Positions 6,750-21,563 of a stretch of 47,948 nucleotides of DNA are shown piece after piece (position 1 is the stretch's first letter; each line of letters opens with the position of its first letter). Origin of the DNA: Bacteroidota bacterium (GTDB lineage: Bacteria > Bacteroidota > Bacteroidia > Palsa-965); NCBI GenBank assembly GCA_013289095.1, contig JABDAO010000011.1, positions 1 through 47,948 of the forward strand, read 5' to 3'. The position numbers and the translations under genes are program-made. A model generated the notes under the pieces. The model was not told the origin of the DNA. It saw only the letters and a program-made list of their open reading frames with translations, and ran no database searches.

Positions 6750-7164
6750 GGTTTAAAAAACAGAAATCGGATGAACGAATAACGTGATGAAGGGTTGATC
6801 AGCAATTCGCTGAAGCCCATTCGCAAAGCCCCGGCACAGAAATGTTTATTGTGTTACACCGTGCCGGCAGATGCTTGAAAGGTATTTCCTGGTTATGTCT
6901 CCCAACAAACTTGTCCTGAATCCGGTTTCTGTCTGATGAAGAATTCCCGATTCGCGGGAATTTGGTTTTCATAATCTTGTTAAACATTGCCTCTTGGTCA
7001 GTTTTTAGTTTTCCGATCAGACATTTCAAATTTACATAAATAATACAAAACCCCGATTCCGGGCGGGGATTATTCCAGGGCAATCGCATCTGGATTCCCG
7101 AAAGTTACGTTTGCCAGCTTTAACAGACGGAGGCAGCAGACCTGGTATTGGGTGAAGAACAATA

Positions 7165-7290
7165 AAATCGGAACATGTCATTCTCCGAAGGGAAGGTGTC
7201 GTGCTCCGTGCGAAACATGTCCTTCTCCGATCGGTATCTGTCCCACTCCGTTCTGAATGTGTCGTATTCCAAATCTGATTCCGTCCGAAA
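7165..7290. repeat. degenerate 21-bp-period array (flank of the main array)
   Basis: tgtc marks at 7176, 7197, 7218, 7239, 7260 (spacing 21 each); unit like gaacatgtcNttctccgNNcg. Confidence 0.8.
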
Positions 7291-7325
7291 CATGCCTCTC
7301 TCCGGCAGGACGCAGCCTCGATAAG

Positions 7326-8010
7326 GAACCTCGGGGAACATGTCGGGAACCTAAGGGAACGTGTCGGGAACCTTGGGGAGCATGTCGGGAACCAAAGGGA
7401 ACATGTCGGGAAACTAAGGGAACGTGTCGGGAACCTTGGGGAGCATGTCGGGAACCAAAGGGAACATGTCGGGAACCTAAGGGAACGTGTCGGGAACCTT
7501 GGGGAACGTGTCGGGAACCTCAGGGAACATGTCGGGAACCTCGGGGAACATGTCGGGAACCTTGGGGAGCATGTCGGGAACCTAAGGGAACGTGTCGGGA
7601 ACCTTGGGGAGCATGTCGGGAACCTCAGGGAACATGTCGGGAACCTCGGGGAACGTGTCGATAACCTTAGGGAACATGTCGGGAACCTTGGGGAACGTGT
7701 CGGGAAACTCAGGGAACATGTCGGGAACCTTAGTGAACGTGTCGGGAAACTAAGGGAACATGTCGGGAAACTAAGGGAACGTGTCGGGAACCTTGGGGAG
7801 CATGTCGGGAACCTCAGGGAACATGTCGGGAACCTCGGGGAACGTGTCGATAACCTTAGGGAACATGTCGGGAACCTTGGGGAACGTGTCGGGAAACTCA
7901 GGGAACATGTCGGGAACCTCAGGGAACGTGTAAGGAACCTTAGGGAATGTGTCGGGAACCCTGAACATGTCGGGAGCCCTGGGGAGCATGTCGGGAACCC
8001 CAAGGAATGA
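7326..8010. repeat. ~32-copy 21-bp tandem repeat (consensus CGGGAACCTNRGGGAACRTGT)
   Basis: tgtcggg recurs from 7341 to 7989; 648 bp fits 30 x 21 plus one 18-bp unit. GGGAAC recurs twice per unit, spaced 10/11 bp. Confidence 0.97.
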
Positions 8011-11239: not shown

Positions 11240-11313
11240 GGATCGGTAGTTCAGCTGGTTAGAATGCCGCCCTGTCACGGCGGAGGTCGCGGGTTCGAGT
11301 CCCGTCCGGTCCG
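11240..11313 (+). tRNA. tRNA-Asp(GTC)
   Basis: GGATCGG TAGTTCAGCTGGTTAGAAT GCCGCCCTGTCACGGCGG AGGTC GCGGGTTCGAGTCCCGT CCGGTCC G; full cloverleaf pairing, anticodon GTC, CCA not encoded. Confidence 0.97.
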
Positions 11314-11326
11314 CAACTACAAATAG

Positions 11327-11361
11327 AAAAGCCCTGTATATCAATGATGTACGGGGCTTTT
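11327..11361 (+). terminator. hairpin downstream of tRNA-Asp
   Basis: AAAAGCCCTGTATATCAATGATGTACGGGGCTTTT inverted repeat followed by T-rich sequence. Confidence 0.75.
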
Positions 11362-11370
11362 GATTTGGCT

Positions 11371-11390
11371 GTTGTCGGTTTCGTTGTCGG
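11371..11390. promoter_or_regulatory. putative integrase arm-type direct repeats, left end
   Basis: GTTGTCGGTTTC GTTGTCGG; matched by GTTGTCGGTTTT x2 at the other element end. Confidence 0.45.
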
Positions 11391-11425
11391 ATTGAGAGCT
11401 TTAGAACATAATGCCCAATCTGAAA

Positions 11426-12412
11426 CTATTCTAACTCCGAATCAATATCCTGAACCATTTTTACCAATTCAGGAGTTGGTGAAAATTGGGTAAGTACCTG
11501 ATCGGTTTCCTTATTGACCCAATCTAATTTAGACTGATCGTATTTCCAATCTTTGGAATCTGTTAATATGATAGTTTCATTTTCTTTTGAAGAGGCAGGC
11601 ATTTTGAAACCAAAATGCTCGACTAGATGGCGGCCCTTCATTGCGTTCAGAATGTTATAAATAGCCATTGCATAAACCCGCTCTGCTCCTTTCCTCTTTT
11701 CTTTTTTATCCGGGTTCGGCTGGGTAAAGATTTTGGTTCCGTATTTTATGGTTTCTATCAAATCCTTTTCCATATCTACAATCGGTCGCATGTGTTGAGC
11801 CTTCCTGCTGGTAAATATTTGCTTGTCCGATTTCCAGAGGTTGAGCCATTCATCAATTAAGATTTCAGCCATTTTTTTATTAGCGACCACAATATGAAAA
11901 TGGGGGTTGTACGTCCTTTTCATGGAATTAAAGTTACATTCCAATGCTCTGATTCCACTCAACTTCATGCCAGTACCCCGGTCATTCCTTTTTTTATACT
12001 TAGCGACAATTTTGTTGAACCCTCTTATCATGCCTTCGTTAATCCATTTGTTGAGATTCTTTGCAGGAATAGCTTTTACGGTAAGGGTAACAAAATAAGG
12101 GGCTTCCCAGTGTTTAAGGACAGGATAATATTTATTTATCATAACAGCTTTTTTGTTTCCAGCACATACGGTACAAATACGACTTCTGCAATAATTGGCC
12201 GAATACATTCGACCGTTTGCTGTCGTGACTTTATCTAAGCAGTAGTAAGCATTCCAAAGAGATTTCTGAAACCGTTTGTTTCCTTTTTTTTCTGCAATTT
12301 CTAACAGGACTTTTATTAATATCCGGGAAATCATTTTCTTTTTTCCCCTGCTTTGTTGCAATTTTTGATCCGTCAAATCACTGCCTTTCCCTTTTACTAA
12401 TCGTTGTTTCAT
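11426..12412 (-). CDS. rolling-circle replication initiator (Rep_1-like HUH endonuclease)
   Basis: 328 aa; HUH-type motif TYNPHFHIVVANK, upstream PYFVTLTVKA (motif I), downstream DLIETIKYGTKI with candidate catalytic Tyr. Confidence 0.82.
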   Translation of the reverse strand: MKQRLVKGKGSDLTDQKLQQSRGKKKMISRILIKVLLEIAEKKGNKRFQKSLWNAYYCLDKVTTANGRMYSANYCRSRICTVCAGNKKAVMINKYYPVLKHWEAPYFVTLTVKAIPAKNLNKWINEGMIRGFNKIVAKYKKRNDRGTGMKLSGIRALECNFNSMKRTYNPHFHIVVANKKMAEILIDEWLNLWKSDKQIFTSRKAQHMRPIVDMEKDLIETIKYGTKIFTQPNPDKKEKRKGAERVYAMAIYNILNAMKGRHLVEHFGFKMPASSKENETIILTDSKDWKYDQSKLDWVNKETDQVLTQFSPTPELVKMVQDIDSELE

Positions 12413-12499
12413 GGCTTTTGGGTTATTTTATTTGTCCTGAATATTTCTAATGTATCAAGCATCCCGTTCCGAAATTTCGGTTGGAATGGGGGGAATCAG

Positions 12500-12790
12500 T
12501 TATCCCCGGCGGTATTTTACCGACTGAACTTTGCTAACAGAATTTTCTACCTCTGCCTTTTTATACCGAACACGTGACTGAATACGGTATGAGGGGATTG
12601 TACCCAGCTTGCTCCATTCGTTAAGCGTAGGCAAACTTATTCCCAAAATTGCAGCGGCCTGATTCCGGGTAATAAACTCGGTTTCGGGAAGATGTTCGGG
12701 ACTGTGGCTTTTGAGTTCTGACTTAACGCAATCTCTGATTAGCGTTTCAAAATCTTTTAGAGAAATTGGGGAAAGAATAAAATCATTCAT
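12500..12790 (-). CDS. helix-turn-helix (HTH_17/excisionase-like) DNA-binding protein
   Basis: EFITRNQAAAILGISLPTLNEWSKLGTIPSYRIQSRVRYKKAEVEN; internal ATG at 12790 (MNDFILSP) is the likelier start of the track ORF 12500-12838. Confidence 0.85.
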   Translation of the reverse strand: MNDFILSPISLKDFETLIRDCVKSELKSHSPEHLPETEFITRNQAAAILGISLPTLNEWSKLGTIPSYRIQSRVRYKKAEVENSVSKVQSVKYRRG

Positions 12791-12887
12791 GGCGTAAGAA
12801 TATGCCACAAAGCACCAACAAAAAAAAAAGGAAATCAAGAAATAAGGAAGGACAAAGACAACTTGTCTCTGGACAAAGACAACTTGT

Positions 12888-14624
12888 CTAAGTATTACGA
12901 ATGGCTCTTTCGAGGGTTTTAGGACTTATACGATGCTTTTCACAGGTGGCTTTTTCAGCTTTATTGTGTGAGTATTTTTTATTCCGGGTGAAACGGTTAT
13001 AGGTTGCGAGGTATTCCTTATACTTTACTTCTGTACTTGGGAGTTTTTTTCGTTGGGTTTTACCTACCGACTTCGATGAAACAAGCGTAGGTTTGTTAGC
13101 ATTTTTTCCATCCTCGGTGTAAGGGTCCTCGGCAATTTGCTCATGCGAACAGACTTCAAAATCCTTAAAAAGAAGAGGGTGTTTTATTTTCAGTTCATCT
13201 ACCTTGCTAACTATGCCTGAATCGAAACCATATTCTTTGATTATTGTTTTATTCACAATTTCCCAAAAATCATTTTTGGCATGTACCCACCCCTTATGAC
13301 CGCCTTCGCAACCAGAGTGAAAATAATTTGTGTGAAGTGTCCTAATGTAGGTTTTGGCGTTCGCGCCATACAACGTGTCTGGAGTTAGAGCAAAATTATC
13401 TTCAAAATACTTTACCCCCTCCGCAAAGGCTTGACAGTAAACCCCAACATAGTTTCTGCCATTAAATGTTTCATTAATGTTTTCATCCGAGTTCCATGCC
13501 GGAATTTGTCTGGAATTTAATATTAGCATCAAATATGGGGAGTAAACCGGAATCTTAAACGGGTACTCCTTTCTGGAGAAAGTGAAGCTGTCGATTCCTT
13601 TAAAGTGTTGTAAGTTTTTGTTATCCCTAAAATATTCAAGATCAATAAAATAGCTATGTAACTCCTCTTTGGTTCTGTCCTTTAGCTGTTGAAGTGGCGG
13701 GGCCGTTTGAATGATGTTATTAATTTCACTAGGTGGTTCAGGTTTCGCTAATGGAGCTATCGTAAACGGAAATTCATTTTGAAAGTAAGAGGGGGTTTCA
13801 AGGACAAGCAACCAAGCACGGTAATTCCTTCCAACCTCTTCACCCATTTCGTAAAATGCATTTGCTTCATAATAAGCATTTTCATTCGCTAGGGCTTTTT
13901 TGCCCTGATTTTTATATGTGGTAGTAAATCCATGTGCCATATTAATATTGATCGCTTTTAGAATTAATTCCTTAATGTTTTCAGGAGTGGAAATAAAGGG
14001 AGTGAAGGTTGTTTCAAATCCTTTTAGAAATCCAATGGCATAACAGTCGAAAACCATGAGAAATTCATCTGCTAATCTTTTATTATCCTTATGAGAAAAG
14101 CAAAGTAGTTCGTAGGAGCCATGTAGAACAGGAATGCATTTGGCAGTGGCAGTGTCAATGTAGATGAATTTGTTTCGTTCCATGTAATAGGTCATTACAT
14201 TTTCAGGAACAAAACCCATTTGGAAATTCAGTTTGTGTTTTCCTTTGTCAAAAGAAATGATGTCAATAGAAAGGTTGAATTGTTTTGGGAGTTTATTTGC
14301 AACCTGCCAGCTTTCCTTTTCTTTTTCTACTCTCGCTCTAATTTCGTTCTCTCGTTCGGCATTGTCTCTAAGGAAATTAAGAAAATTCTCTTTAGTAAAT
14401 TCTTTGCAATAGGACTGTTCATTTTCTATTTCTATGCCTTTATTTACTCTCAAATAATTCAGGAATGCTCCTTCGTGAATTTGCTTAAAAATAGCCTTAC
14501 TAACTTCAATTTCTTTCGGATTTTTTCCTTCACATTCACCTAGTGGAATAGCTCCCCAGAGAATTGCATCTTCAAATAATTCATCAAAGGATTTGTATGT
14601 CTTTTCGATTTCCATTACATCCAC
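12888..14624 (-). CDS. 578-aa protein of unknown function (element cargo)
   Basis: Long ORF with GTG start directly after the upstream stop; no family recognised. Basic C-terminus NRFTRNKKYSHNKAEKATCEKHRISPKTLERAIRNT. Confidence 0.85.
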   Translation of the reverse strand: MDVMEIEKTYKSFDELFEDAILWGAIPLGECEGKNPKEIEVSKAIFKQIHEGAFLNYLRVNKGIEIENEQSYCKEFTKENFLNFLRDNAERENEIRARVEKEKESWQVANKLPKQFNLSIDIISFDKGKHKLNFQMGFVPENVMTYYMERNKFIYIDTATAKCIPVLHGSYELLCFSHKDNKRLADEFLMVFDCYAIGFLKGFETTFTPFISTPENIKELILKAININMAHGFTTTYKNQGKKALANENAYYEANAFYEMGEEVGRNYRAWLLVLETPSYFQNEFPFTIAPLAKPEPPSEINNIIQTAPPLQQLKDRTKEELHSYFIDLEYFRDNKNLQHFKGIDSFTFSRKEYPFKIPVYSPYLMLILNSRQIPAWNSDENINETFNGRNYVGVYCQAFAEGVKYFEDNFALTPDTLYGANAKTYIRTLHTNYFHSGCEGGHKGWVHAKNDFWEIVNKTIIKEYGFDSGIVSKVDELKIKHPLLFKDFEVCSHEQIAEDPYTEDGKNANKPTLVSSKSVGKTQRKKLPSTEVKYKEYLATYNRFTRNKKYSHNKAEKATCEKHRISPKTLERAIRNT

Positions 14625-15011
14625 TTAAAACAAAGAAAGCTGGCTATCATCATCCTGAACCTGTCGTTTAAGCCGGGATTGGTGAACAGGCTTATCTACC
14701 TCTTCAAATATTTCCTGCCTTTCTTCACTCTTAGCAACAACCGTTTCAATGTCAGCAATAGCCAATTCAATCTCATTGGGAGCATCAGGAATATTGTTTT
14801 CCGCTTTGTAAATACGGGCTTCTATAATCTGGCTTCTCCAAATTTCCATCAACTCAAGGGAGGAGGTAAGCCCCTTTTGAATAGCTATATCCGATTGAAG
14901 ATATATTGCTTCCAATTTTTCAGTCAGCTTTCTATCTGACATTGCAGCGAGGAGAGTTATATTTCTCTCTGCATTTTCGAGGGCTTCATGTATCCTAATG
15001 TCGTTACTCAA
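14625..15011 (-). CDS. 128-aa hypothetical protein with C-terminal QLSLF (beta-clamp-binding-like) motif
   Basis: ORF overlaps the end of the R-M gene by 8 bp; ends ...QVQDDDSQLSLF*. Confidence 0.85.
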   Translation of the reverse strand: MSNDIRIHEALENAERNITLLAAMSDRKLTEKLEAIYLQSDIAIQKGLTSSLELMEIWRSQIIEARIYKAENNIPDAPNEIELAIADIETVVAKSEERQEIFEEVDKPVHQSRLKRQVQDDDSQLSLF

Positions 15012-17826
15012 GGATACCTCCTTCCACTATTTTTATGTCAGCTTCAGTCAGATCGTATAATTTGTAAATGAGATGATTTATCTTCTCCTCATTATGTTCT
15101 ATCCGTTGTTTTGTTTGCTCAATTTTAGTTTGAAGCGAAATGTCTTTTAATTCCTCATTCAGGGTCAGAAGAGAATCAACACACTTAACGATTTCATCAT
15201 GCCACCCTTTTTCTTCTTTCTTTGAGAAATCAATCATCGAAATTGGAATTGCTTCGATCTCTGATTTTTTTATTTTCGGAAAAATAGTCTTGAAATCTGA
15301 ATTGACTTTTCTCCAAAACCATTTACCCAAATGGCTATTGATTATTGCAAGAATATATTTTAATGAATAATCCGTTATCGAAATTAAATTGTATAGCGTA
15401 TTTAGGGTGTAATAATTCCGTCCGTCAAACGTGGCAACCGGAGTATTCCCGATTTGCCGAATTAGTATTTTGTTGTTTAGAAAATATTTCTCATCCCTTT
15501 TTCTATGCAGTAAATCTCCATAATGCACATAAATGCCCCTCCAGTTAGTTTTATAACTGTTAATGTCTTTTCCGTCTAATACCTTTTTCCATGACTTGCT
15601 TTTCGCTTTATTAGAGAGGAAATCTTCTTTAGTATTTGTGCCATGACTTCCTCCCAATTGAATACCAATGCAGGTATCCGTGATTTCTCCAAGATGAATT
15701 GAATTTGCTTCAATTCGATTAAGGAGGTCTTCTGTTGAATCATCATTAGCGACATTAAACTTGAAATTTTGATTTGATAAAAACTTCTTAGTCGAAATCT
15801 TTGTAACACTTTCCCCCTCAATGGTTATAACGCTATCTTTAAGGCTTAAACTATTACTCACAACCAATATAACCGTTTCAACCTGTGCATCTTCAAAAAC
15901 TCTATTCTTAAATACTCGGATAGTTTCCAGTGAATAGCTTTGTAAAATCAGTTGTCTGATTTTTGTAGCATTTTCATTTACAAGAATTGTATTAGGAATG
16001 ATGAAGCTGAATTTTCCGTTTTTCTTTAAAAGAGACAGGGCCTTTTCGCAAAAAAAGACATATAAATCATATTTCCCTCCGTATGATTTATATTTCGTTG
16101 AAATGTACGTCTTTATTGAATCGTCAAAGGTTTCCCTTCCTAAAACATAAGGAGGATTCCCAATTACTACATCAAATCCACCCTGCTTAAATATTTCTGA
16201 AAATCCCTTTTTCCAGTTAAATGGCTTTATTTTGCGTTCGTACCCTAAATCAATTTCGCTGTCATAAAAATCAGTATCAATTAAGCTATTTCCATTTTTA
16301 ATATTGTTGTCAAGGTCAGGTAGAACTCGTTCGTGAAATAGACTTATCTGTTGCTTAATGGAGGCTTCCGTCTCTCCTTCCATACATTTGAGCAACAAAC
16401 TAAGTTTTGTTACCTCAACAGCGTTTGAATCAATATCAACGCCAAAAATATTATTGAGAAGGATGCGTTTTTTTTCATGAGTGGTTAGAGTGCCTTGGGG
16501 AGTGAAAGGGTTATCTTTTCCTCTTTTCGTTACGTATCCCTTTTCGTGATACCAATTGACGTGATGGTTCAGCAGATACTCAAAAGCACCAACCAGAAAA
16601 GAACCGCTACCGCAAGCGGGGTCCACAATGGTTATTTTCTCAATTTCTTTGGGTGATTTGCCGTCAATGAGTTTTCCGACCGTGTTTTTTACAATGTATT
16701 CAACAATGTACTGAGGGGTGTAAAAAACGCCTCCGGCTTTTCTTACTTCCGGTTTCTCTTCAATTTTTACTCCCCTTGCCGGAGTTATCCGAATTACCTT
16801 GCCCAAAAATTGCTCGTAGGCATTGCCCAAAATCTCAACTGGCATTACCGAAAATTCGTAGTTACATAAGGGGTAATACAATTCATCAACTACAATTTTC
16901 AGAACCTTGTTATCAACTTTGAGTTTTGGAGTAATAACGTCTTTCTCGAAATCGAATAGGCCGGAATTGTATTTGTCATCTGCCTGCTGAAACAGATCGA
17001 ACAGATTTTTATAGGAATCGCCCTTTGATACGGCTTTTTGCAATTGTCCGTAGGGTTCAACGGCCCGGTCTTCGCAAAAGCGGAGGAAGATCAAACGGTC
17101 AATTGTTTGCTGAACAGCAAAGTTCAGCTCCTCATCATCTATTTTTTTGTTGTTAAAGGCAATGCTTTTGGCAAGGTATTGCCTCCATTCGTCCAAGCTC
17201 TTTACAAAGCGCTTATCCAGTGTGTCGGTTCCGCGCTTGCTTGCAGAACTCTGAACAAACTTATCAAAACGGCCCTTGGTAACTGCTTCGTGTGAAAACG
17301 TGTCGTAAAGGAAATCAAAATCTTTGCCGAAGTCCTCAAAACCGATGTATTTTAACCGGGCTACATTTGCGCTGTCGTTCAGGTTTGGGACTTTGGAGCA
17401 ATCGTAAACGATAAACTCCTCAAAATTGGTAAGGATTGAAACGTAGGCTTGTGCGCTGCTTCCGTAACGTCTTAGTTGATAAGCAGACTCTTTGTTTGCC
17501 TTGAGGGAAACGGAGGGCTTTTTAGCCTCAACGTAGAACAGACGTTTTGTTGTGCTACCAGAAAGACGAAAACCGTAATCCGGAGCTTTTGCTCTGTCTT
17601 TTCTTCCCTCCCGGACAACTACCTTGTCCTCGTAAATTACTTCCCGGTATGCTTCAGAATCACCCTTTTCATTGTCTATATCCCAGCCCAATGCTTTAAA
17701 AAACGGATTAATAAAGTCCTGTCTGGTCTTCTGTTCATTGTAATCGGGCAAATGATAGTCTTTCCGGTGTTCCCGGAATCGTTCAACAAGTGCTTCTATG
17801 ATGGATTTGGCTTGCTCTCTGGACAT
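15004..17826 (-). CDS. Type IIG-like restriction-modification enzyme (Eco57I-type methyltransferase fused to HsdR_N-like nuclease)
   Basis: PD-(D/E)xK-like APDYGFRLSGSTTKRLFYVEAKKPSV; methyltransferase motifs ITIVDPACGSGSFLVGAFEYLL and VVIGNPPYVLG; C-terminal TaqI-like specificity region. Likely start MSREQAKS at 17826 within ORF 15004-17880. Confidence 0.92.
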   Translation of the reverse strand: MSREQAKSIIEALVERFREHRKDYHLPDYNEQKTRQDFINPFFKALGWDIDNEKGDSEAYREVIYEDKVVVREGRKDRAKAPDYGFRLSGSTTKRLFYVEAKKPSVSLKANKESAYQLRRYGSSAQAYVSILTNFEEFIVYDCSKVPNLNDSANVARLKYIGFEDFGKDFDFLYDTFSHEAVTKGRFDKFVQSSASKRGTDTLDKRFVKSLDEWRQYLAKSIAFNNKKIDDEELNFAVQQTIDRLIFLRFCEDRAVEPYGQLQKAVSKGDSYKNLFDLFQQADDKYNSGLFDFEKDVITPKLKVDNKVLKIVVDELYYPLCNYEFSVMPVEILGNAYEQFLGKVIRITPARGVKIEEKPEVRKAGGVFYTPQYIVEYIVKNTVGKLIDGKSPKEIEKITIVDPACGSGSFLVGAFEYLLNHHVNWYHEKGYVTKRGKDNPFTPQGTLTTHEKKRILLNNIFGVDIDSNAVEVTKLSLLLKCMEGETEASIKQQISLFHERVLPDLDNNIKNGNSLIDTDFYDSEIDLGYERKIKPFNWKKGFSEIFKQGGFDVVIGNPPYVLGRETFDDSIKTYISTKYKSYGGKYDLYVFFCEKALSLLKKNGKFSFIIPNTILVNENATKIRQLILQSYSLETIRVFKNRVFEDAQVETVILVVSNSLSLKDSVITIEGESVTKISTKKFLSNQNFKFNVANDDSTEDLLNRIEANSIHLGEITDTCIGIQLGGSHGTNTKEDFLSNKAKSKSWKKVLDGKDINSYKTNWRGIYVHYGDLLHRKRDEKYFLNNKILIRQIGNTPVATFDGRNYYTLNTLYNLISITDYSLKYILAIINSHLGKWFWRKVNSDFKTIFPKIKKSEIEAIPISMIDFSKKEEKGWHDEIVKCVDSLLTLNEELKDISLQTKIEQTKQRIEHNEEKINHLIYKLYDLTEADIKIVEGGILE

Positions 17827-17982
17827 AAATTGGTTAAAGGAGGTTAAATATAGCCAAATGGAGGAAAGTATTGGGGGCAATGAGGGAAATATTCTGTTTT
17901 TTTACAAACGTTAGGACGGAACGAAAAAGGAGTCCGTTGTGGACTCCTTTTTCATTGTAAAATGACAATTGACCGGGAAGGG

Positions 17983-18282
17983 TTATTTATGTGCAAGGTT
18001 CTTAACATCATTGATATAATCCTTGATGAGAGTAACCATAGTAGGCGTATGATCTGCGAGTAGAAACCGGCCCTTGATAAAGTCAAAACCATGTTTTTCA
18101 ACAAGCGAGCCTATGGAAGAGTTCAAAAATGAACTTGACATCGGGGTACATGCTTTTAATGAAAGAACAATGATAGAACCGTTGGTTAAAGCCTTGTCCA
18201 TTGCTAAAAAAAGCAAGACCCCCTCAGTATTTGTGGAGGTTCCGGTTACTATATCCTTAACTACAATTATTTCCTTTTTCAT
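17983..18282 (-). CDS. STAS-like domain protein (DUF4325-like)
   Basis: 99 aa MKKEIIVVKDIVTGTSTNTEGVLLFLAMDKALTNGSIIVLSLKACTPMSSSFLNSSIGSLVEKHG; layout matches STAS-like DUF4325 (by eye). Confidence 0.7.
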   Translation of the reverse strand: MKKEIIVVKDIVTGTSTNTEGVLLFLAMDKALTNGSIIVLSLKACTPMSSSFLNSSIGSLVEKHGFDFIKGRFLLADHTPTMVTLIKDYINDVKNLAHK

Positions 18283-18289
18283 AACAGTT

Positions 18290-18356
18290 CGTCAAAGGTA
18301 CGACAAAAACAGGACAAAAATATGACAAAAACCGGGCAAGAGTATGATAGAAATCG
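18290..18356. repeat. 11-bp-period direct repeat upstream of the STAS-like gene
   Basis: GTCAAAGGTAC GACAAAAACAG GACAAAAATAT GACAAAAACCG GGCAAGAGTAT GATAGAAATCG: six contiguous 11-bp units. Confidence 0.7.
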
Positions 18357-18365
18357 GGGTGTTTC

Positions 18366-19271
18366 TTAAAATAGCTCAACTTCCTCCGAAGATTCAGCTT
18401 CAAGTAATTGAAAATGAGATGTATTCAGCTTTATCACCAAATACGTTCCCGGAAATGAAAATGCAAGGTTATCTAATTCTGATTTAACGTTTACGCTTTG
18501 AATTTGTTTCGAATAAAACGCCCGGTTGGATACAATTGTTATTTCACCCTTATTTGCTTTAACGATAGTGAGAATTATGTCTAATCCAAAGCCCCGGTTG
18601 TGAGGGTTGCTTTTTGTTGAAAAACCCAACTCTAAAGCCTTTTGAAGAGCCTGACTGTCATCTAACCTACCTTTCACGTCACCTATAAATTCATTCACCT
18701 TATTGGGGATACCCTTCCCAAAATCACATATTGAAATACAAAGCTCCGACTTCTGTTTGTAGAATTGAGTTGCGATAAATCCACTCACTTTGGATTCAGA
18801 ATGATCGGTAATGTTATTTAATGCTTCTACAACCGTTAGCCTCAATGGGGTTAAATCTTTCTCCTTCAGAGAATGAGCAGCATAGAAATTTTGTATCACA
18901 CCAGCAAAAGCATCAATATTTTCGACCTTGTGTTTCCAGATTGGCATTGTATTGGTTAACCGGGCTTTGAGGCAATAATTCCTATTTGAATTGCTTGTCC
19001 AATACTGATCAAATTTAGAGTATTTGATAAAATTGCCGGAATCAGTACCCTCTCTGTATAATATCCTGATTCTTGCTCCTGACAGCCTGTATTCTTCAAT
19101 TAAACAAGCCAGAGAAGTTAAATGGTAAGGAAAGAGAAACGAGATTTGGCGAAAATCAAAAATGAATAATCTCCCCGCGTTAGACCTATCTGAGTTACGG
19201 TTATTGACAATGAAACGTAACCACTCGACTAAGTGTTCGCAATTGGGTATTTTAATGGTAATCTTTTGCAA
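18366..19271 (-). CDS. STAS-like N-terminus fused to GHKL/HATPase_c ATP-binding domain
   Basis: 301 aa; N-box VEALNNITDHSES, G1 SICDFGKGIPNKV, G2 NPHNRGFGLDIILTIVKANKGEI; N-terminal LFIFDFRQISFLFPYHLTSLACLIEEY resembles a STAS domain. Confidence 0.85.
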   Translation of the reverse strand: MQKITIKIPNCEHLVEWLRFIVNNRNSDRSNAGRLFIFDFRQISFLFPYHLTSLACLIEEYRLSGARIRILYREGTDSGNFIKYSKFDQYWTSNSNRNYCLKARLTNTMPIWKHKVENIDAFAGVIQNFYAAHSLKEKDLTPLRLTVVEALNNITDHSESKVSGFIATQFYKQKSELCISICDFGKGIPNKVNEFIGDVKGRLDDSQALQKALELGFSTKSNPHNRGFGLDIILTIVKANKGEITIVSNRAFYSKQIQSVNVKSELDNLAFSFPGTYLVIKLNTSHFQLLEAESSEEVELF

Positions 19272-19380
19272 AATCAGCTATGGTTTAGAGAAATGGATAC
19301 AATCCAATCTAATTTCAAAAGTACAGGTAAAAAAATCTGATATTAATTTACGACCGAAAGTTGCAAAGAGTTTACTCATT

Positions 19381-20685
19381 TCAGACTGCAACAAGCCTCT
19401 GTTTTTCCTGCCAATGCAACCTCAACAGATTAGCATTCTCATTCGGTGTAATCTTGATATACCTCATAAACGCTTTTTCTGTCCGGTGTCCGGTTATCTT
19501 CATAATCGAAATAGCAGGGAATCCACTAAGATACAGATTTGAAGCAAAACTCCTCCGGGCCGTATGTGTGGTAACAAGCTCAAATTTTTTCCGGTTTGTA
19601 GAAATGTTCAGACCTCCTTTGGTAATGCTTGTTGAGGTTTTGGCATGGAGGCTTTCAACCATGTGTCCCAGCTCTTTCAGGTATTGATTCATTTTTACGT
19701 TGGAAATAGCCGGGGGCAATGAGTTGGGATATTTTCCTTTATACTTTGCCATTATCTTCTTAACGGTCGGATGAATCGGAATTACAACCGTTTCCCCTGT
19801 CTTTTGGGTTTCAAGCTCAATTTCTTCGATTTTGATGTTTTCAGGCTGGATATTTGAAAAGTCAGAAAAGCGTAAACCAGTCCAGCATCCGACAATAAAT
19901 AGATCCCGTATCCGGTCCAAGCGCGGGTTATCTGATAAATCCAAAGCGCATATTTCGGCAAGCTCTGATTCTGTCAGGTAAATGCTCTCTGTATCTTCCC
20001 GGATAACCCTAAACCGTTTGCTTTTGTGTGAAAGGTTCGTGCTTAGACCCCGTTCAGTAGCTTCATTCAAAAAGGTTTTGAGCGTTTTCATGTGTTTGCC
20101 TATGGTATTATTGGCAAAACCCAGGTCTTTGGTCAGGTATTCGGTAAAGTCGTGGTAAAAGTCCAGATCAATGGTATCAAAGTCAATCCGTTTCCGTTTG
20201 AGCTGTTTGAAGTTCCGCAATACCTGTAAGGTGTTCCGGTAAATCTGAATAGTGTCTTTGGAGAAAGTCTTCCCCGTCTTTTCGTTTACTCGTACTCTGG
20301 ATTCCTCAATGAATTTTTCAGTGAACCGGAATAAATCCAACTTTATGGTTTCGGCTTCCGGGTTCAGCTTTTTATTCAACAGGTCGCGGAACTCTTCGAT
20401 TGAAGGGAGCTTGTTTTCATTGTCGTTTTGATATTGTCTGAAAACGTCTTTTGCGGAGCTTTCCAGAAAGTTCAGACGGGCGTTAAATTCCGGGTGTTCC
20501 GGGAATGTCTTTGTTTCTTTCGCCCGCTGGTAATTCCGTTTGTCGGGGTCTGATTCCCAAAATTTCGGGTAAATGCTCTCTTTGGTAGGATAAACGAGCC
20601 TGTTGTTATTCCACCGGATAACGAGATGTATAGCTGTTTCTGTGGAGGTTCCTGCTTCCCGGAGGTTGAAATTGAATTTTGCCAT
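19381..20685 (-). CDS. tyrosine-type site-specific recombinase (integrase)
   Basis: 434 aa; WTGLRFSDFSNI (box I Arg), HTARRSFASNLYLSGFPAISIMKITGHRTEKAFMRYIKI (box II H-x-x-R, H/Y). Confidence 0.96.
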   Translation of the reverse strand: MAKFNFNLREAGTSTETAIHLVIRWNNNRLVYPTKESIYPKFWESDPDKRNYQRAKETKTFPEHPEFNARLNFLESSAKDVFRQYQNDNENKLPSIEEFRDLLNKKLNPEAETIKLDLFRFTEKFIEESRVRVNEKTGKTFSKDTIQIYRNTLQVLRNFKQLKRKRIDFDTIDLDFYHDFTEYLTKDLGFANNTIGKHMKTLKTFLNEATERGLSTNLSHKSKRFRVIREDTESIYLTESELAEICALDLSDNPRLDRIRDLFIVGCWTGLRFSDFSNIQPENIKIEEIELETQKTGETVVIPIHPTVKKIMAKYKGKYPNSLPPAISNVKMNQYLKELGHMVESLHAKTSTSITKGGLNISTNRKKFELVTTHTARRSFASNLYLSGFPAISIMKITGHRTEKAFMRYIKITPNENANLLRLHWQEKQRLVAV

Positions 20686-20734
20686 TTTGTGCTGTTTGGA
20701 TTAACGAAATACAAAAATAGGCTTTCTTTTTTCT

Positions 20735-20758
20735 GTTGTCGGTTTTGTTGTCGGTTTT
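20735..20758. promoter_or_regulatory. putative integrase arm-type direct repeats, right end
   Basis: GTTGTCGGTTTTGTTGTCGGTTTT between int start and attR. Confidence 0.45.
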
Positions 20759-20900
20759 CTTTAATTATCCCTTATTTTGCTTAATCGTTCTTTTCTTCAT
20801 AATCTCTGAAAAGCCCAATAGATAAGGGAAGTACGAAAGGAATCGGGAAAAGCCGGAAACAAAGGTAGCGGTCCCGTCCGGTCCGCAAACACAAAAAGAG

Positions 20901-20936
20901 AAGCCCTGTATATCAATGATATATAGGGCTTTTTAT
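20901..20936. terminator. attR-side copy of the tRNA-Asp hairpin
   Basis: AAGCCCTGTATATCAATGATATATAGGGCTTTTT. Confidence 0.65.
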
Positions 20937-20944
20937 TTAACTTA

Positions 20945-21245
20945 TACCCCGTCCAGTAGCTTCATTCAGGAAGGTTTTGAGGGTTTTCATGTGTAGTATT
21001 GAGCTTTATCACCAAATATGTGCCCGGAAATGAAAATGCAAGGTTATCTGCCTCTGATTTAACGTTTCTGCTTTTAATTTGCTTCGAATAAAACGCCCGG
21101 TTAGACACAATCGTTATTTCGCCCTTGTTTGCTTTAACGATAGTGAGAATTGTGTCTACTCCAAATCCCCGGTTGTGAGGATTGCTTTTTGTTGAAAACC
21201 CCAATTCCAAAGCCTTTTGAAGAGCCTGACTGTCATCTAATACGC
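20945..21245 (-). pseudogene. decayed fragments of a second integrase and a second HATPase gene
   Basis: 20947-20993 (ACCCCGTCCAGTAGCTTCATTCAGGAAGGTTTTGAGGGTTTTCATGTG) matches int at ~20048-20095; 21005-21242 matches the HATPase gene at ~18422-18664 at roughly 90% by eye (DDSQALQKALELGFSTKSNPHNRGFGVDTILTIVKANKGEITIVSNRAFYSKQIK). Confidence 0.9.
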
Positions 21246-21563
21246 TGGTTAAAGAAGATTGAATATGGGGCATCTCTAATAACCCCATCCAAATTGTACC
21301 TTCGTCCGCCACGGCAGACGAACCTAGACGCAAAGCATTTAGTTTCCCGTAAACTAGGATATTCGGCTCTATCGGGTTACAATTGTTCTTTGCGCGGTAT
21401 AATCAACCCCGCTCGGAATCAGTGTCCCCGTCAGTACATGTCCTCCCAAACTGATCACCCTCTTTTCATGAAGCTTCGGCCCCCGTTTCGCCATTAAAAA
21501 AACCTTCTGTAGTTTTGGTGCAAATACATACGCCGCAAACAACGAATCAATACAATCCCTTCT

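Follow-up and report, generated by a model that had tools for sequence, protein, structure and literature searches.

A small protein coupled to a type IIG restriction–modification enzyme ends in a conserved motif predicted to dock on the host sliding clamp

Clamp-motif proteins such as PolC, Pol IV, UmuC, MutS and IS transposases share the published consensus QL[S/D]LF or QxxLF (PMC12309361). For instance, B. subtilis PolC uses a C-terminal QLSLF as its clamp motif, with measured binding that is micromolar for the B. subtilis clamp and submicromolar for the E. coli clamp (PMC12309361). Type IIG and IIL restriction–modification (R-M) enzymes, such as the relatives of Eco57I and MmeI, unite a nuclease, a gamma-type N6 methyltransferase and one specificity domain within one polypeptide. 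R-M enzymes are usually held to find DNA by diffusion. In eukaryotes, the sliding clamp PCNA recruits the methyltransferase DNMT1 to nascent DNA. For enzymes that modify one strand, reviews call it "unclear" what sets the unmethylated daughters apart from foreign DNA (PMC4081073, PMC3874165). An R-M system coupled to the clamp did not turn up in the literature searched, which is weak evidence because the coverage was mostly without subscription papers and bioRxiv.

The locus analysed here lies in a stretch of 47,948 nucleotides from a Bacteroidota bacterium (GCA_013289095.1, contig JABDAO010000011.1, positions 1 to 47,948), referred to below as the window, and encodes a 128-aa protein, the adaptor, directly behind a single-chain R-M enzyme (Table 1). 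The enzyme matches Eco57I (1.1e-42), TaqI_C (6e-26) and HSDR_N (4.5e-8) in Pfam and REase_MTase_IIG (1.6e-197) in PADLOC, and it has the nuclease, gamma methyltransferase and specificity domain of type IIG enzymes in one chain; Pfam recognised no further methyltransferase in the surrounding element. It thus resembles the Eco57I and MmeI relatives, but the separate small subunit with a putative clamp-binding tail has no counterpart described for them in the literature searched. The adaptor in turn resembles the clamp-motif proteins in its terminal or linker-borne QxxLF, its disordered linker and the conserved DnaN pocket of its hosts, but its core is a predicted helical fold without a match in the fold search, it is coupled to an R-M enzyme, and it is no polymerase, repair protein or transposase.

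Table 1. Coordinates of the main features; positions refer to the window unless a locus number is given.
Feature	Position	Strand	Basis
128-aa adaptor (helical core, disordered linker, C-terminal tail)	14625..15011	-	ORF and translation, 28-locus family, AlphaFold2
Terminal QLSLF codons CAG CTT TCT TTG TTT, candidate beta-clamp-binding motif	14628..14642	-	homologue conservation
Overlap of R-M stop with adaptor start, 8 bp	15004..15011	-	direct reading
Single-chain type IIG R-M enzyme: HSDR_N-like nuclease, Eco57I/N6 methyltransferase, TaqI_C specificity	15004..17880	-	Pfam, PADLOC
Integrative element of ~9.6 kb at tRNA-Asp, carrying R-M and adaptor	11299..20938	.	direct repeats, tRNA overlap, Pfam
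MazG-like and GIY-YIG/Schlafen-helicase/S24 genes upstream of adaptor	L040 9123-12339; L162 3013-6138		domains of both large proteins

The original prediction, made from the letters of the window, had described a 128-aa reading frame that overlaps the R-M stop and ends in a clamp motif, and both points were confirmed, the overlap by direct reading and the ending by translation, since the protein closes with ...RLKRQVQDDDSQLSLF, that is, with DDDSQLSLF at its very end. The start codon is TTG, the aligned position being ATG in most homologues, and a Shine-Dalgarno-like AAGGAGG is read 5 nt 5' of it within the last R-M codons. The source genome holds one copy. AlphaFold2 places helices at residues 3-12, 14-22, 26-46, 49-72 and 80-102, the helical core being confident to about residue 75 and the helix to 102 less sure, and gives pLDDT below 50 at 100-122, where the chain is predicted to be disordered; we accordingly divide the protein into a core (about residues 3-102), a linker (100-122) and the tail. 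The fold search gave no match with E of 0.001 or less, and the domain searches in Pfam and NCBIfam gave no significant match. They also returned no HTH family, and the adaptor, which does not have the small HTH of an R-M controller (C) protein, was rejected as one. Four other matches were set aside as chance: PglX (PADLOC, E 0.004), which only the window copy among 19 members matches, COX5A (Pfam, E 0.038), ElxO (PDB, E 0.02) and a Vibrio phage protein (E 0.8).

The adaptor family comprises 28 loci in all, from Bacteroidota, and 26 of these encode intact adaptors with identity down to about 32%. Among the genomes of the class, 19 of 395 gave adaptor matches; a scan of GTDB contigs found six loci, two of them new, and the tail-blind profile A2, built without linker or tail, added seven further members, all within one family. 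The two broken copies are a frameshifted one in L039, where SQLSLF and the stop still stand in another frame, and a frameshifted remnant without tail in L043, while L017, L023 and L116 encode distant relatives of the core only, also without tail. No relatives were found in viral contigs or plasmids, and none that were significant in phages. A phylum-wide sample returned the adaptor only as the window copy, and its range may therefore be limited to parts of a single class.

A tail of the form Q-x-x-L-F is present in all 26 intact members, as QLSLF, QMSLF, QLTLF, QISLF, QMNLF, QTSLF, QLGLF or QFDLF, with three residues beyond the F in L016 (QMNLFDES), and its Q, L and F are invariant in the last five residues of 19 aligned homologues. 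The predicted conservation of the terminal motif therefore holds, and homologues without it, which were looked for, do not occur among the intact close ones. All seven members added by the tail-blind profile are tailed as well (QMNLF, QISLF twice, QMSLF three times, QTSLF). Averaged over pairs, identity is 0.79 for the tail (last five residues), 0.50 for the core and 0.31 for the linker, which bears out the expectation that the linker would vary while the tail is kept; of 124 five-column windows, only 2 match the tail in conservation. Leucine is written in the tail with all six of its codons and serine with at least five, and since these codons vary while the residues stay, selection acts on the tail peptide. 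As background, 411 other, unrelated ORFs of the loci gathered were taken, of which only two end in Q..LF, both from one other family, PDC-M19B. The terminal motif is more than chance, as judged from the sequences, and the family carries a conserved motif of the form QL[S/D]LF or QxxLF in a terminal or linker position that is accessible.

The presumed receptor is the host sliding clamp. DnaN was found in 15 of the 16 adaptor-bearing genomes, namely the source genome and 14 others. Although the aligned proteins have a whole-protein identity of only about 26% to E. coli DnaN, the residues T172, H175, L177, P242, V247, V360 and M362 (E. coli numbering), which we take to be the peptide-pocket residues of E. 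coli DnaN, persist in all 14 aligned sequences or in nearly all of them, so that the canonical peptide pocket is present in the hosts. In addition, the polymerase Y proteins of three adaptor genomes carry similar motifs, QFDLF (L126), QKNLF (L127) and QLNIF (L128). The adaptor variants fit the published consensus (PMC12309361), and docking of the tail in the host DnaN pocket is a strongly supported prediction. One could instead read the end of the window copy, with its DDD before the terminal F, as a mimic of the C-terminal tip of SSB and no clamp motif at all, given that SSB tips have acidic residues before a terminal F. This reading is hardly credible: the residues before the tail vary (KPEQLSLF, NSVQLGLF, SNIQFDLF), the acidic ones are not conserved while the Q is invariant, and L016, ending in LFDES, extends past the F where a required free terminal carboxylate would forbid it; an acidic tip of the SSB type was therefore rejected.

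The link of the adaptor to the R-M enzyme, which the original prediction had proposed, also stood up. Among 26 loci with readable neighbours, 19 have the same R-M family 0-1.5 kb upstream of the adaptor, and stop and start overlap in nine loci, including L024, L029, L030, L036, L045, L161, L164 and L167. Where the two are not adjacent, usually one foreign gene stands between them (DUF559, BRO-N or an IS200-like Y1 transposase), and in L026 three genes do; unrelated single genes have landed in this gap repeatedly (L025, L031, L032, L041, L048). The adaptor occurs without the R-M gene in five loci, one of them a pseudogene, and many related R-M enzymes are found without an adaptor, which is thus not universally needed. 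The proposed link to the 578-aa protein encoded next to it did not hold, and this candidate partner was rejected, because its gene is private to the window locus and absent from all the others.

In the R-M tree, 12 of the 14 adaptor-bearing enzymes fall within a group of 13, and presence or absence of the adaptor changes four times, compared to 11.2 in shuffles. The distances among adaptors track those among R-M N-terminal halves (Mantel r 0.84, p 0.0002) better than those among specificity halves (r 0.44), even though the specificity half lies between the N-terminal half and the adaptor, and they do not track those of host DnaN (r 0.23, p 0.15). For this reason we infer that the adaptor core contacts the nuclease/methyltransferase half of the enzyme. 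Within the eight closest pairs the co-divergence is weak (r 0.40, p 0.07), and co-divergence of adaptor and R-M enzyme could be an effect of linkage alone.

R-M enzymes are not the only neighbours. In L040 and L162 two other genes take the place of the R-M gene upstream of the adaptor, one MazG-like and one for a GIY-YIG/SLFN-g3 helicase/S24 peptidase protein (the 109-aa gene of L162 is called MazG-like by its likeness to that of L040); this arrangement is a candidate for a second clamp-coupled system. PDC-M19B, a PADLOC candidate defence protein (L110 3305-4132, homologues L168-L185), closes in most of its homologues with a tail resembling QxxLF (QQSLF, QATLF, QGKLF, QTKLF, QISLF), one ending in QTSLPLQEY instead, and by its tails it is likely another clamp binder. 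The pair PDC-M19A/B is similar to the present system as a defence-candidate pair whose B protein is tailed in this way in most homologues; it differs in that its sequence is unrelated to the adaptor and it stands beside an R-M relative in L110 only. Given the adaptor tail, further defence genes, such as that of PDC-M19B, are worth examining for clamp motifs at the ends of their products.

Taken together, the adaptor would be an accessory subunit that serves a type IIG R-M enzyme made as a single polypeptide. The helical core of the adaptor may bind the conserved nuclease/methyltransferase half of the enzyme while the flexible adaptor tail would occupy the peptide pocket on the host beta sliding clamp, and the enzyme is probably tied through this tail to freshly copied DNA. 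Clamp docking would place the methyltransferase on newly replicated DNA, where unmethylated daughter sites could be modified before the same enzyme cuts, assuming modification of one strand. Since single-chain modifiers of one strand leave one daughter fully unmethylated, methylation of nascent host DNA before cutting is the most likely purpose of such docking, and we give this reading of the 128-aa protein an even chance of being right. A broader claim, that a portable adaptor family tethers defence enzymes (mostly type IIG R-M, in two loci a GIY-YIG/Schlafen-helicase) to the clamp for replication-coupled modification and so solves the problem of the unmethylated daughter for one-strand modifiers, is more tentative, and we would sooner doubt it than rely on it. 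The logic proposed is like that of maintenance methylation by DNMT1–PCNA (and UHRF1), in which a methyltransferase is brought to nascent DNA through the clamp; unlike there, the system is bacterial, the adaptor would act in trans and the enzyme also cuts, so the analogy is functional and inferred only. If true, bacteria would have a counterpart of clamp-guided maintenance methylation that works through a separate adaptor. A clamp-binding subunit is a concrete and testable answer to how the unmethylated daughter duplex escapes cutting, and such a tether could explain how type IIG enzymes spare their own host's new DNA.

In the main rival reading, clamp docking may instead serve restriction, with cleavage concentrated on replicating foreign DNA, which is rich in loaded clamps. 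The evidence of the tail, DnaN and R-M linkage fits this equally, and it gains from the company that the adaptor keeps, a candidate defence effector (GIY-YIG, Schlafen-type helicase and S24, with MazG-like) in place of the R-M enzyme, and from the QxxLF-like tails of a second defence-candidate family, PDC-M19B. However, clamps sit on host forks too, where it would be hazardous to bring a nuclease but no methylase, the two activities share one chain, and phages with a clamp of their own would escape, so that we consider restriction targeting unlikely. The adaptor might otherwise be a regulator that, clamp-bound or free, turns the nuclease off near host forks as an immunity or timing factor and recruits no methylase. 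A small partner with apparent translational coupling would suit such a role, and immunity remnants could account for the orphan copies in which the tail persists, but the absence of an HTH and of any known regulator fold in Pfam, NCBIfam and the fold search (E of 0.001 or less) makes it quite improbable. Nascent-DNA methylation is the preferred reading.

The original prediction had also considered that the clamp is hijacked for replication of the element. The element is bounded by a 68-nt direct repeat (11299-11366 and 20871-20938) and sits at tRNA-Asp (11240-11314), whose 3' end overlaps the repeat; its genes are int, GHKL, DUF4325, R-M, adaptor, 578-aa, HTH_17 and Rep_1. The presence of Rep_1 beside the window copy would suit an adaptor that recruits DnaN for the element, its adjacency to the R-M gene being accidental. 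Elsewhere, the R-M and adaptor pair occurs in many loci without the integrase, Rep, HTH or 578-aa genes of this element, so that the pair is a cargo module, and service to the element is disfavoured to the point of being very improbable. Just outside the element, at 20941-21333, the remnant of a second integrase (54 nt, 91%) is joined with part of a GHKL ATPase (252 nt, 90%), which points to a second, decayed related element. Between integrase and R-M lies a pair of a DUF4325 STAS-like protein and a GHKL ATPase (17983-19271), anti-sigma-like in kind, which perhaps regulates the element; its GHKL ATPase ends in ...EEVELF. At 7032-8003, highly repetitive ORFs are found on both strands, with PTCSLRFPTRS-like repeats, and this region is probably a tandem repeat array and no gene.
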